From Cryomorphaceae bacterium BACL11 MAG-121001-bin54 (GTDB lineage: Bacteria; Bacteroidota; Bacteroidia; Flavobacteriales; BACL11), in contig CAJJAH010000001.1 of assembly GCA_905182255.1 (NCBI GenBank), forward strand, positions 124,001 through 188,000: a stretch of DNA of 64,000 nucleotides, written 5' to 3'. Under the pieces are notes generated by a model. That model was not told the DNA's origin. It saw only the letters and a program-made list of their open reading frames with translations, and searched no databases. This document shows, piece by piece, positions 57,036 through 61,991 of the stretch. Position 1 is the first letter of the stretch. Every line of letters begins with the position of its first letter. The translations under genes and the position numbers were made by a program.

Positions 57036-57962
57036 TTAATAATCGTTTGTTCTAAAATGCTCCTCTTCTTCTATTAGCATTTTCAGGTAATTTCTATAAC
57101 GACTTTCAGCAATATCTCCTTTTTCTAATTCAGACTTCACAGCACATTGAGGTTCATTTTTATGAATACAATTATGGAATTTACATTTTAATTTTAATGC
57201 AAAAAATTCAGGAAAATAATTAGCTATTTCAGTTGCTTTTAATTCAACAAGGCCAAACCCTCTAATTCCTGGTGTATCAATGATGGATGCCCCAAAATCA
57301 AGATCATGTAACTCCGAAAATGTTGTTGTGTGCTGACCCTGCATATGAGTGTCAGAAACCTTCTTAGTGTTAATATGTAAATCAGGTTGTAAATAATTTA
57401 CTAGCGTAGATTTACCCACTCCAGAATGCCCTGAAATCATATTCAATTTTCCTTTCATCACCTCTTTTATATTTGATAAGTCATCATGAATAACAGAAAT
57501 AGCGAAACAAGTATAGCCAATTTCTTCATACACTTTTTTCAGTTTATCGTATTGGATTTTCAATTTATCACTTAATAAATCTACTTTATTAAATAGAAGT
57601 ATTACTTCAATTCCATAAGCATTAGCAGCAACTAAAAAACGATCAATAAATCCAGTACTAGTAACAGGACTATTTAAGCTTATCATAAGTAACGCTTGAT
57701 CAATATTGGCTGCAATAACATGAGTTTGCTTACTTAGGTTTACTGATTTTCTGAGAATATGATTTTTTCTATCGTGTAAATTAGTAATCATCCATAGTTC
57801 TGAATCTTGAACCACAGCAACCTTATCACCAACTACGATTGGACTAGTACTTTTTATTCCTTGAATACGAAATTTACCCTTAAGACGACATTGTACTAAT
57901 TCTCCTGTATCCGTTTTGACGGAATAGCGTTTGCCCGTTGTTTTTGTAACTACTCCATTCAT
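57036..57962 (-). CDS. rsgA: Ribosome small-subunit-dependent GTPase A
   Basis: 308 residues. An N-terminal OB fold (GKRYSVKTDTGELVQCRLKG) precedes a circularly permuted GTPase domain: the G4 motif NKVDLL comes before G1 GHSGVGKST and G3 DTPGIRG. The C-terminal zinc motif is seen as CKFHNCIHKNEPQCAVK. It assists late 30S maturation. The start is five bases after a perfect -7 element, so the transcript would be leaderless or nearly so. Confidence 0.96.
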   Translation of the reverse strand: MNGVVTKTTGKRYSVKTDTGELVQCRLKGKFRIQGIKSTSPIVVGDKVAVVQDSELWMITNLHDRKNHILRKSVNLSKQTHVIAANIDQALLMISLNSPVTSTGFIDRFLVAANAYGIEVILLFNKVDLLSDKLKIQYDKLKKVYEEIGYTCFAISVIHDDLSNIKEVMKGKLNMISGHSGVGKSTLVNYLQPDLHINTKKVSDTHMQGQHTTTFSELHDLDFGASIIDTPGIRGFGLVELKATEIANYFPEFFALKLKCKFHNCIHKNEPQCAVKSELEKGDIAESRYRNYLKMLIEEEEHFRTNDY

Positions 57963-58020: not shown

Positions 58021-58995
58021 ATGAAGAAAATACTCGCTTTATTGTTCTCTATTCCACTTTTAGGAATTGCACAAAACACAGTTTGTTTTAATATTGAAGC
58101 GAATCCTAGTCCTAATGTTTTAGCTCTTTCACCTTTTACAAAATATGTAGATGTGCTAGGATGCTTTAGTATCTATGCAGAAAGCACTATTTCAGATTCT
58201 AAAGTTTTACATGCAGCAGCTGTAGCTGCCGAATTATTAGACAACAATGAGGATGGAATAGTGGATGATCCTCAAATTGAAGCGCAACTTATAAACGAAA
58301 GTGCATTAATACCAATATTCTTTCAAGATGGGAATCAGGCAATGTATACTTTTTTCAATAATTACAATGGTGATGGAGTAAGTGCAGTTTTATATAACAA
58401 TGAGATAGACCCAACTCAAACAGGACACTGGGGGAATGATGCCTCAGTGGAAGAAATAATGCATACAATCAACCATGTAGGACATACTAATGTCTATCCT
58501 AATGCATTTAGTTTACAGGTAAACTCTTCACTTTTGACTGCTGCAATGGATATAGCTAGAGGAGGACAATTTATGAGCGTACCTAACAGCTACCCCGCTT
58601 CTGCATGGTATCATTACTATGACCAAACTTGCGATTATGAGTGCATGGCAATTGAATATATCTATTGGGCACAAGTAAGTAATATGGGAATTTTGGATGA
58701 TGCTCAAACTGCTTCTGGAATTGCAAACGAATGGGAACCTTACAATGCTTCTCTTTTACAGACTATGGATTCGTTGATCTTTATCTTAATTACTGACCCC
58801 CAATACAAATTACCACAGATAGCTCCTAATGGAAATTACTGCCCCACTCCTTCAGCTATTTCTGAAATACAAACAGAAAAGAAATTAATAAATATTGTAG
58901 ATGTATTGGGGAGAAATACAACAGCTAAAATTAACAATCTACTCTTCTATATTTATGATAATGGAATTGTAGAGAGAAAAATTATTATTAATTGA
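58021..58995 (+). CDS. Secreted protein of unrecognised fold with a short T9SS-like C-terminal domain
   Basis: 324 residues. A signal peptide (MKKILALLFSIPLLGIAQ) is followed by a domain I do not recognise. It contains a calcium-loop-like LLDNNEDGIVDD near residue 75, EEIMHTINHVGH near residue 145 (spaced histidines after Glu, possibly metal-binding), and CDYECMAIEYIYWA near residue 215. The C-terminal ~38 residues (KLINIVDVLGRNTTAKINN..., LFYIYDNGIVERKIII) resemble the end of the next gene and look like a T9SS sorting segment lacking the usual YPNP motif. A secreted metal-dependent hydrolase is one possibility; the evidence is weak. The stop overlaps the TTG start of the CotH-like gene. Confidence 0.75.
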   Translation: MKKILALLFSIPLLGIAQNTVCFNIEANPSPNVLALSPFTKYVDVLGCFSIYAESTISDSKVLHAAAVAAELLDNNEDGIVDDPQIEAQLINESALIPIFFQDGNQAMYTFFNNYNGDGVSAVLYNNEIDPTQTGHWGNDASVEEIMHTINHVGHTNVYPNAFSLQVNSSLLTAAMDIARGGQFMSVPNSYPASAWYHYYDQTCDYECMAIEYIYWAQVSNMGILDDAQTASGIANEWEPYNASLLQTMDSLIFILITDPQYKLPQIAPNGNYCPTPSAISEIQTEKKLINIVDVLGRNTTAKINNLLFYIYDNGIVERKIIIN

Positions 58996-61259
58996 AAAAA
59001 CTAATACTGATATTTACATTCTTGTCTTTAGTATTATTTTCACAAAATACTAATCATTGGGAAACAGTAGTTTTTGAAGATGACTATTGGAAATATCTGG
59101 AAGGTAATTTTGAGCCAGATTCTAATTGGAGAGAATTAACTTTTAATGACTCTAACTGGCTTCAAGGTATTGGAGGTGTAGGATATGGAGATGGTGATGA
59201 CAATACTATTATCAACCCAGTAACATCACTTTATTTACGGAATATTTTTGTTATTACTGATACTTCCGAAATTTCTGAAGCAATTCTTAACATTGATTAT
59301 GATGATGCTTTTGTTGCTTATCTAAATAATGTAGAGATTGCCAGGTCAAATATTGGAAGTTTTGGAGATCATCCATTATACAGCCAGGGATCATCTTCAC
59401 TTCATGAAGCTCAAATGTATCAAGGAGGAAGTCCTGATCAATTTATTATAAATACCCAACTATTAAATAATACCTTACAACAAGGAAATAATATCTTGTC
59501 TGTGCAAGTACATAATGATAATATTTCTTCTTCAGATTTAACAGCACGAATATTTCTTTCAGTAGGAGTTAGTACTACAAATACTAATTATTCACCAACT
59601 CCTTCTTGGTTTCAACCTCCTCTTATTTTCACAACATCTAACCTTCCTATTGTGGTAATCAACACTAATAGTCAAAATATCATGGATGATCCAAGAATTA
59701 TCTGTGATATGGGTATTATTGATAATGGGTTTGGAACTGTTAACTCAATAAATGATCCATTTAATGATTACAATGGTAAAATTAGCATAGAATATAGAGG
59801 AAGCAGTTCACAATCCTTCCCTAAAAAACCTTATGCGCTGGAAACTCAAGATTTAAATGGAAACAATAATAATGTTTCACTTTTGGGTATGCCTATAGAA
59901 AATGACTGGATATTATATGCTCCTTATTCAGATAAAGCATTGATGCGTAATTTTTTAACTTTTGATTTAGGAAGAAAAATGGGGCATTATTCGCCAAGAA
60001 CTGTTTATTGTGAACTGGTAATAAACGGAGAGTATAAAGGTATCTATATATTAATGGAAAAAATAAAAAGAGATAATGATAGAGTAAATATTGCTAAATT
60101 AGATTCGGACGATTTAGCAGGGGATAGTTTGACTGGGGGATATATAATTAAAATAGATAAGTATACAGGAAATGGCGGTTTAGATTGGATGTCAGACTTT
60201 CCTAATACAGGTGGAGACCCATTGTATATTCAGTATCATTATCCTGAAGCTACAGCATTACAACCACAGCAATTAAATTACATTGAACAATATGTAGATA
60301 GTTTTGAATACGCGTTAAATGGCTCTAATTTTACTGATACTTCTATTGGATATTCTAAATATATTGATATCAATTCTTTTATTGACTTTTATATAATAAA
60401 TGAGTTTGCAAAAAATATTGATGGATACAGACTTAGCACCTACATGCATAAAGACAAAGAAAGTAAAGGAGGTAAACTCGCTATGGGTCCATTTTGGGAT
60501 TTTAATTTAGCATTTGGAAATGCTGACTATTGTAGTGGTGGAGTTATATCAGGGTGGGAAGTAGATGGTGGCTGTGGATATAATAATCCTTTTTGGTTTG
60601 AGCGCCTTTTGGATGATACATTATATGAGAACAAACTTAAATGTAGATGGGAATATTTACGAGAAAGAAGTTTTCATCAAGATTCTCTTTTTAACTTTAT
60701 TGATAGCTTAGCTCTTTATTTAGATGATGCTCAGCAAAGAAATTTCCAAAAGTGGAATACTTTAGGCACTTATGTTTGGCCTAATTATTTTGTAGGGAGT
60801 ACTTATCAGCAAGAACTAATTTTTTTTAAAACATGGATTGGGAATAGACTATCATGGATAGATAATAATTTAGGAGGAAATTGTTATGAAGTTTTAGGTT
60901 GTACCGATCCATATGCATGTAATTATAATCCACAAGTAAATACTAATGATGGGAGTTGTAATTATGATTCAGCATCATATGATACGCTTTTTTCAAATAT
61001 AAGTATAATTTGGAATGGGTTAAATTTATTATCATCAGGAAATTATTCTTACCCTTTAATTAACTCCTCTGGATGTGATAGTATTGCAAATATTAACTTT
61101 ACTATTATTATTTCAGACATCTACAATATTTCTAATTATCAAAACAAGTATTTGATTAAAATAACAGATGTTTTAGGTAGAGAAGTAAAAGCAATTAGGA
61201 ATAAAACCCTTTTATACATCTATAGTGATGGAAGTGCAGAAAAGAAAATTTTTAAGTAA
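58992..61259 (+). CDS. Secreted CotH-kinase-domain protein with short T9SS-like C-terminal domain
   Basis: 755 residues, starting with TTG in the overlap TTGA with the preceding stop. The TTG begins a good signal peptide (KKLILIFTFLSLVLFSQ), and the next Met is ~140 residues later, so the start is well supported. After a beta-rich N-terminal part (about 20-195; YLRNIFVITDTSEI, LSVQVHNDN) comes a CotH domain: YRGSSSQSFPKKPY, DWILYAPYSDKALMRNFL, INGEYKGIYILMEKIKRD, then GPFWDFNLAFGN with the metal-binding DFN. A Cys-rich module CTDPYACNYNPQVNTNDGSC (GCTD-type, common in marine Bacteroidota) and a short sorting segment (DVLGREVKAIRNKTLLYIYS) end the protein. CotH proteins of Bacillus phosphorylate spore-coat proteins; here a secreted or surface kinase role is inferred. 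Confidence 0.88.
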   Translation: MKKLILIFTFLSLVLFSQNTNHWETVVFEDDYWKYLEGNFEPDSNWRELTFNDSNWLQGIGGVGYGDGDDNTIINPVTSLYLRNIFVITDTSEISEAILNIDYDDAFVAYLNNVEIARSNIGSFGDHPLYSQGSSSLHEAQMYQGGSPDQFIINTQLLNNTLQQGNNILSVQVHNDNISSSDLTARIFLSVGVSTTNTNYSPTPSWFQPPLIFTTSNLPIVVINTNSQNIMDDPRIICDMGIIDNGFGTVNSINDPFNDYNGKISIEYRGSSSQSFPKKPYALETQDLNGNNNNVSLLGMPIENDWILYAPYSDKALMRNFLTFDLGRKMGHYSPRTVYCELVINGEYKGIYILMEKIKRDNDRVNIAKLDSDDLAGDSLTGGYIIKIDKYTGNGGLDWMSDFPNTGGDPLYIQYHYPEATALQPQQLNYIEQYVDSFEYALNGSNFTDTSIGYSKYIDINSFIDFYIINEFAKNIDGYRLSTYMHKDKESKGGKLAMGPFWDFNLAFGNADYCSGGVISGWEVDGGCGYNNPFWFERLLDDTLYENKLKCRWEYLRERSFHQDSLFNFIDSLALYLDDAQQRNFQKWNTLGTYVWPNYFVGSTYQQELIFFKTWIGNRLSWIDNNLGGNCYEVLGCTDPYACNYNPQVNTNDGSCNYDSASYDTLFSNISIIWNGLNLLSSGNYSYPLINSSGCDSIANINFTIIISDIYNISNYQNKYLIKITDVLGREVKAIRNKTLLYIYSDGSAEKKIFK

Positions 61260-61277
61260 TAATTCTTTTCTCTTTTT

Positions 61278-61285
61278 TATCTTTA
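61278..61285 (+). promoter_or_regulatory. -7-like element TATCTTTA, four bases before the gldA-like start
   Basis: Same seven-base core TATCTTT and same four-base spacer to ATG as at 9036 and 10428. Five of six fixed positions of the -7 consensus match; no -33 TTG was found. Confidence 0.4.
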
Positions 61286-61289
61286 CAAA

Positions 61290-61991
61290 ATGTCAATCAA
61301 CATTAATAAAGTCAATAAATTTTATGGAAATCAGCAAGCACTGACTAATGTTTCCTTTTCGCTGAACAAAGGGGAGATAGTCGGATTCCTTGGCCCTAAT
61401 GGAGCTGGGAAATCTACCTTAATGAAAATTATAACTTGCTATTTAGAACAAGACAGTGGTAAAGTTCAAGTTTGTGATTTGGATACTATAGAGCAAAACT
61501 TAAAAGTAAAAGCAAAAATTGGTTACCTGCCAGAAAACAATCCGCTTTATACTCACATGTACATTAAAGAATACCTAACTTTTGTTGGTAGAATTTATAA
61601 AGTTGAAAATCTTAATAACCGTGTTACTGAAATTATTCAACAAACAGGTTTAACCGCTGAACAAAACAAAAAGATTGATGAACTTTCAAAAGGATTTAAA
61701 CAAAGAGTTGGTTTGGCTGCAGCCCTAATTCACAATCCTGAAATTCTAATTCTTGATGAACCTACAACAGGCTTGGATCCTAATCAATTGTTAGAAATAA
61801 GAAATCTGATAAAAGAAATAGGAAGGGATAAAACTGTACTACTTTCCACACATATTATGCAAGAAGTAGATAAAATGTGTAACCGAGTAATTATTATCAA
61901 TAAAGGTAAAATTGTAGATGATAAATTGATTTCCAACTATCAGAAAAATAATATTGACTTAGAAGAACATTTCAGGAAATTAACTAGTTAG
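61290..61991 (+). CDS. gldA: GldA-like ABC transporter ATP-binding protein
   Basis: 233 residues. Walker A is GPNGAGKST (about 35-43), the signature LSKGFKQRVGLAAALIHNPE, Walker B ILILDEPTTGLDPNQ and the H-loop STHIMQE. The SINKVNKFYGNQQALTNVSF and YLPENNPLYTHMYIKEYL segments resemble gliding-motility GldA closely. GldA proteins are usually ~300 residues; this one stops shortly after the ATPase core (NIDLEEHFRKLTS), lacking ~65 residues. Its membrane partners GldF and GldG are not in the window. It may act with them in gliding, or as another export ATPase of this type. Confidence 0.85.
   Translation: MSININKVNKFYGNQQALTNVSFSLNKGEIVGFLGPNGAGKSTLMKIITCYLEQDSGKVQVCDLDTIEQNLKVKAKIGYLPENNPLYTHMYIKEYLTFVGRIYKVENLNNRVTEIIQQTGLTAEQNKKIDELSKGFKQRVGLAAALIHNPEILILDEPTTGLDPNQLLEIRNLIKEIGRDKTVLLSTHIMQEVDKMCNRVIIINKGKIVDDKLISNYQKNNIDLEEHFRKLTS

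Follow-up and report, generated by a model that had tools for sequence, protein, structure and literature searches.

A secreted EExxH protein family of marine bacteria and archaea, probably of metal-binding enzymes, and a CotH kinase gene as its occasional neighbour

Two overlapping genes in a flavobacterial genome raise the question of whether a secreted protein without a recognisable family and a secreted CotH-type kinase act as one functional unit. Both lie in the 64,000-nucleotide stretch of DNA analysed here (the window), at the coordinates that the original prediction had given. Gene A (58021-58995, plus strand; 324 aa) runs from an ATG at 58021 to a TGA stop that ends at 58995. Its product consists of a signal peptide, a core domain of about residues 19-275 (58075..58866, plus strand), which served as search query and founds the EExxH family described below, and a short C-terminal tail, KKLINIVDVLGR...LLFYIYDNGIVERKIIIN (58879..58992, plus strand). 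Gene B (58992..61259, plus strand; 755 aa) encodes a secreted CotH-type protein with a tail of the same type, KYLIKITDVLGRE...LLYIYSDGSAEKKIFK (61146..61256, plus strand). It begins with a TTG placed over the stop codon of A, in the sequence TTGA (58992..58995, plus strand). This unusual start is supported by a relative (G189; loci L002/L043), in which B begins with ATG at the same codon and overlaps A by the same 4 bp, as ATGA. Signal peptides of A and B were judged by inspection. Together with the common tail of about 38 residues, which lacks the YPNP half in both proteins, they give A and B the secreted appearance first proposed for them.

The proposal that A and B form an unusual unit fails when gene order is followed through the relatives. 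Where the gene after A could be read, at 11 loci of the same family, it is a CotH gene in 2; this count excludes one masked locus, one ending at a contig end, and fragments. One of the two is the window itself; the other is G189, which is apparently the genome that also holds L002. At the other loci, as named by sequence inspection, A is followed by an acyltransferase-like gene, an epimerase-like gene, a gene for a secreted protein or for a small lipoprotein, or a convergent gene, or the ABC ATPase comes immediately after it. Among 40 relatives, A is present in 13, fragments among these, and a full-length B orthologue occurs in nine genomes with the window included (73-90% identity outside the window). 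Six genomes carry both A and a full-length B orthologue (G000, G189, G199, G084, G036, and G136). The two genes are together in two of them and apart in four, either on separate contigs or, in G199, at a distance of about 349 kb. A and B are thus not kept adjacent in relatives, an outcome that the original prediction had named as refuting it.

The overlap itself appears to be a general habit of B, since in G199, G084, G136, and G219 it shares 4 bp with another secreted gene that carries the tail; no such overlap was seen at B in G036, G151, and G165. A dedicated kinase-partner unit, in which B phosphorylates A or both act on a common surface target and translational coupling holds them together, would account for the same-strand 4-bp overlap, its retention in G189, and the single tail type on both proteins. 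Against it stand the scarcity of the pair among readable loci, the separation of A and B in most genomes that carry both, and the overlaps of B with other tail genes. In addition, A has other surroundings in the archaeal and Marinimicrobia loci read. We consider such a unit very improbable, and we rejected it as a conserved arrangement on the first three of these counts. By gene order, B is only an occasional neighbour of A, probably by chance. Recombination between homologous tail DNA may have brought B to A: the junction between tail and B in G199 is similar to the one in L002, and pairwise tail identities of 59-87% speak neither for nor against this route.

The flanks of the locus are steadier than its interior. 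The gene upstream of A (57036..57962, minus strand), presumably an rsgA-like GTPase from its sequence, is a conserved upstream neighbour in the same-family relatives read. Downstream, the conserved flank is a gene (61290..61991, plus strand) that we take, likewise from its sequence, to be ABC ATPase-like. What lies between A and this ABC ATPase (58996-61289 in the window) varies from one relative to the next, being a different gene or none, as also seen at L001, L008, L041, L048, L050, and L113. Genes turn over at this spot, next to a block that is conserved. Downstream of A, L001 (8483-10237), L008 (8174-9967), and L049 contain stretches masked as N, and some genes there are unreadable. At L105, L106, L108, and L109, tail-bearing secreted genes form tight clusters, several of them overlapping by 1 to 4 bp.

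The shared tail had been offered as a further mark of pairing. Its presence on both proteins stands; its value as a sign of pairing does not, because the tail is standard across the window's family. A profile built from 14 tails and searched against the 40 relatives matched in 29 and gave no match in 11. All 25 genomes of the window's family carry the tail, at 8-53 copies each, and on these copy numbers the tail was rejected as a pairing signal. The window's genome has 28 tail places, a few of them on duplicate contigs. Outside the family, three other families contributed a single genome each, with 36, 7, and 5 copies, and a genome of one further family had one weak match. In the window's genome (G000), identical tail or domain matches recur on two contigs for the pairs C2/C3, C1/C6, and C3/C5, which suggests overlapping or duplicated contigs.

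The tail looks like a lineage-wide sorting tail resembling the second half of the type A sorting domain of type IX secretion (T9SS), and it is predicted to direct export. Like that domain (PF18962, TIGR04183), it is C-terminal, carries a DxxGR strand and a final Lys strand, and is found on many secreted proteins. It differs in its length of about 38 residues, in lacking the YPNP half, and in being missed by the Pfam and NCBIfam models. Four tails compared with both libraries gave no match to a T9SS model at E<=10. Full type A domains also occur in the window's genome, with 33 matches at E<=1. When the tail profile was set against 16 type A tails from that genome, 17 columns aligned over the DxxGR strand at a probability of 43.8. 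A half-length signal is plausible because, according to passages of a review (PMC10202324), the last 22 residues of the HBP35 C-terminal domain, covering motifs D and E, suffice for export of GFP. SprA, a core protein of the T9SS, was found in 34 of the 40 relatives; no copy turned up in the genome of the window, which is 53% complete, or in the tail-carrying G170 and G199. If the prediction holds, the short tail would add T9SS cargo that has gone uncounted, at 8-53 copies per genome in this family and unmodelled in both libraries.

The assignment of B to the CotH kinase family holds, with a match to PF08757 at E 2e-66 over positions 1-322 of the 322-position profile. The CotH domain covers residues 266-623 (59787..60860, plus strand). 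Within it, D477 (60420-60422, plus strand) and D503 (60498-60500, plus strand) are invariant in six of six orthologues and are candidate catalytic residues; the alignment of B to 5jd9 stops short of both. The catalytic aspartates of Bacillus CotH are D228 and D251, as stated in excerpts of PMC7821199. B shares the full Pfam profile with Bacillus CotH and differs from it by a signal peptide and a sorting tail in a T9SS-positive lineage. The literature search returned nothing that joins a CotH kinase with type IX secretion. B, presumably a secreted CotH kinase, may move from one cluster of tail-bearing genes to another. A repeat of roughly the form GCTD-x-x-A-x-NY...AN-x-x-DGSC lies at 60897-60974 of the window (about residues 636-661 of B), and the same type of repeat occurs in the N-terminal region of the archaeal A homologues L012 and L080. 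Over this repeat, a profile of B weakly matches macrophage-expressed gene 1 in the PDB (E 0.23).

Protein A is the find of this locus, and the tail is ordinary for the lineage, though unmodelled. In line with the original prediction, which saw no recognisable fold in A, neither Pfam nor NCBIfam gave a match at E<=1, and a comparison with the sequences of solved structures returned noise only. Sixteen family members compared with Pfam and NCBIfam yielded tails, dockerins, and noise, and subfamily 3 gave nothing convincing in either library. A first scan with A recovered 14 loci at 58-83% identity, in bins labelled Flavobacteriales, Crocinitomicaceae, Marinimicrobia, Myxococcales, Saprospiraceae, and Poseidoniales. 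The core was present in 26 of 395 genomes of the order, 2 of 395 genomes sampled across the phylum, 7 of 292 genomes from the phylum of a Poseidonia bin (G741), and 49 of 245 genomes from that of a Marinimicrobia bin (G743). Simple mis-binning of the archaeal members is argued against by the N-terminal membrane segment and the extra region before the core that L012, L013, L080, and L081 have in common. Eukaryotic relatives of A may exist. On its sequence distribution, A founds an undescribed secreted family that spans marine bacteria and archaea, probably of metal-binding enzymes.

What follows the core varies among members. By inspection, some members end in the short tail, others in a type A domain with YPNP or in a dockerin-like pair, and others have nothing after the core; many tail-less members start with a lipoprotein-like signal. 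The core appears to carry whichever surface anchor its host uses. Of 90 protein rows, 82 were unique and 80 were aligned after the fragments L014 and L061 were dropped; ten of the 80, being fragments or poor rows, were excluded from a tree of 70. Host labels change four times for Marinimicrobia, four for Flavobacteriales, and twice for archaea on this tree, whose deep joins depend on long branches. Four Flavobacteriales rows group inside Marinimicrobia with starred support, suggesting transfer between phyla. The core may have passed between distant lineages, archaea included, and may have been re-anchored in each host by the local device, whether a sorting tail, a type A C-terminal domain, a dockerin, a lipoprotein signal, or a membrane anchor. 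At L052 (G099), next to rsgA, locus and tail are typical of the family, and the core groups with copies from another family inside Marinimicrobia. This placement suggests replacement of the core in situ by a transferred copy. Carriage of A by phages or plasmids was not supported, with no match in the viral contigs, phages, or plasmids searched.

The conserved residues of A cluster in two motifs. A 13-row alignment of the core has a mean column identity of 75%, with the loop Asp, EExxH, N151, and H155 columns invariant, which places loop and EExxH motif beyond chance. The calcium-loop-like motif noticed at the outset is therefore real: it is an EF-hand-like loop, DNNEDGIVDD, at residues 74-83 (58240..58269, plus strand). 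Across the 80 aligned rows, which fall into three subfamilies of 57, 19, and 4, loop positions D74 and D82 are kept in 78 of 78 rows with a residue, and D78 in 73 of 78. The second motif, also singled out earlier as His-rich, is EEIMHTINHVGHTN (residues 144-157). Its EExxH part is general. Its richness in histidine is not, as subfamilies 2 and 3 have Tyr, Trp, or Phe at H155.

Within this second motif, EEIMH (58450..58464, plus strand) resembles HExxH, with Glu in place of the first His (E144-E145-x-x-H148). E144 is Glu in 80 of 80 rows, E145 in 78 of 80 (the exceptions being one Ser and one X), and H148 is His in 79 of 80. A candidate third metal ligand, E212 (58654..58656, plus strand; CMAIEYIYW), lies on a downstream helix predicted at residues 206-221, 64 residues from H148, and is Glu in 77 of 78 rows with a residue. 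In one member, L060, Ser, Thr, and Lys stand in place of E145, H148, and E212, and E144 is retained. Such joint loss suggests that the three residues form one site, decayed in this member. In subfamilies 1 and 2, D177 offers another candidate acid; it too is lost in L060, which has Asn there. By the HExxH test for zinc sites A fails, position 1 being Glu in every row; because the first zinc His is missing in every member, canonical zinc peptidase activity is not predicted from the motif.

In fold prediction, which had been suggested at the outset for the 324-residue protein, gluzincin-like neighbours appeared twice, and no match was significant. The full-length model averages a pLDDT of 67: most of residues 21-130 reach about 90, residues 141-150 score 86, residues 211-230 score about 72, and values fall to 39-46 between residues 161 and 200. 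The core-only model is worse than the full-length one (mean 58.6). Foldseek returned no match at E<=1e-3 for either. The best hits of the full-length model were clostridial collagenase domains (E 0.071) and PPEP-2 (0.32), and those of the core-only model were collagenase H (0.022), then collagenase T and PPEP-2. VIA gave Z of 5.1-6.3 for the full-length model and a maximum of 6.3 across both, below the Z of 8 under which it warns of a mere common arrangement. All 50 VIA entries listed for the full-length model are, judged by entry title, zincin-fold metallopeptidases. Both models rank gluzincins first (M9 collagenases and PPEPs), at E>=0.02 and Z<=6.3. Each fold score taken singly would count as background, and the weight comes from agreement in kind and the match to conserved residues. 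With low-to-moderate confidence, the modelled core of A points to a gluzincin metallopeptidase fold.

Three readings of A compete over this evidence. We judge it somewhat likely, as a whole, that A is a calcium-stabilised, gluzincin-like metallohydrolase of the cell surface and that B is a secreted CotH kinase and its chance neighbour. A is probably a peptidase-like metallohydrolase, with Glu replacing the first zinc His at a predicted site in a predicted fold. A would be displayed on the cell surface and stabilised by calcium; E144-E145-x-x-H148 on the active-site helix and E212 on the downstream helix would hold one metal ion, with E145 as general base and H148 and E212 as metal ligands. E144 stands where HExxH has its first His and may make the site prefer another metal (Mn or Fe) to zinc; the likely targets of cleavage would be extracellular peptides or surface polymers.

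It is doubtful, yet worth weighing, that A has a zincin-like fold and is not an enzyme. The EExxH motif and the acidic downstream helix would then be structural or metal-holding parts of a surface adhesin or binding protein. The first His is absent in all 80 rows, and the high column identity over the whole core (13 rows) could mean a binding surface. However, E145, H148, and E212 are kept across otherwise dissimilar subfamilies and lost jointly in L060, the pattern of a catalytic set. Quite unlikely, in turn, is a metalloenzyme of other fold or chemistry, such as an Fe/Mn hydrolase or oxygenase, whose zincin likeness would stem from a poor model. Fold scores are weak throughout, and blocks in the second half of the full-length model have pLDDT of about 35-73, as such an explanation would have it; yet two differently built models give the same neighbours, and the motif sits on a predicted helix (residues 142-158 of the full-length model), like the active-site helix of zincins. 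Extending the metallohydrolase reading to its fullest form, a cross-domain family of secreted gluzincin-fold enzymes with an EExxH plus Glu site that uses Mn or Fe rather than Zn and is a real extracellular hydrolase of the ocean, makes a claim that we regard as unlikely.

Zincin metallopeptidases are identified by the HExxH rule, and a widespread secreted marine family that has EExxH in all members read would escape that rule as well as Pfam and NCBIfam. If A is active, the zincin scaffold would tolerate a carboxylate where a zinc His is the norm, possibly along with a different metal, and A would add an extracellular enzyme common to marine bacteria and archaea. A zincin-like enzyme class would then exist beyond the HExxH rule. 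In the literature searched, no mention of EEIMHT or YIYDDG was found, and EEXXH appeared, at the level of titles or abstracts, only for metal or zinc transporters.

Among these transporters, ZIP8 and ZIP14 (SLC39) have EEXXH as their metal site, and conversion of EEXXH to HEXXH in ZIP8 abolishes Mn transport, as described in parts of PMC10457451. They resemble A in having Glu for the first His with metal still handled, a change linked there to Mn selectivity. They differ as membrane transporters of unrelated fold, and offer a precedent for the motif change only, by analogy and not homology. Closer in setting is the FP0506 elastase of Flavobacterium psychrophilum, described in sections of PMC6414381 as a Flavobacteriaceae lipoprotein of 296 aa with a predicted gluzincin fold and no named family. 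It has the canonical HExxH and ExxA motifs, unlike A, and is likened to A by description, not by sequence. With the gluzincins at large (M9 collagenases, PPEP/anthrax lethal factor types, and M1 aminopeptidases), A shares the predicted order of strands and helices, an xExxH helix, a Glu on a downstream helix, a calcium-type loop, and secretion; it differs in having EExxH in place of HExxH and in showing no sequence match. In clostridial collagenases, as excerpted from PMC3711286, the HExxH helix gives two His ligands, the third is a Glu that follows 28-30 residues later on an adjacent helix, and both calcium and zinc are needed; the spacing of 64 residues in A is longer. Judged by HExxH, A falls outside the gluzincins, although it may work like one.
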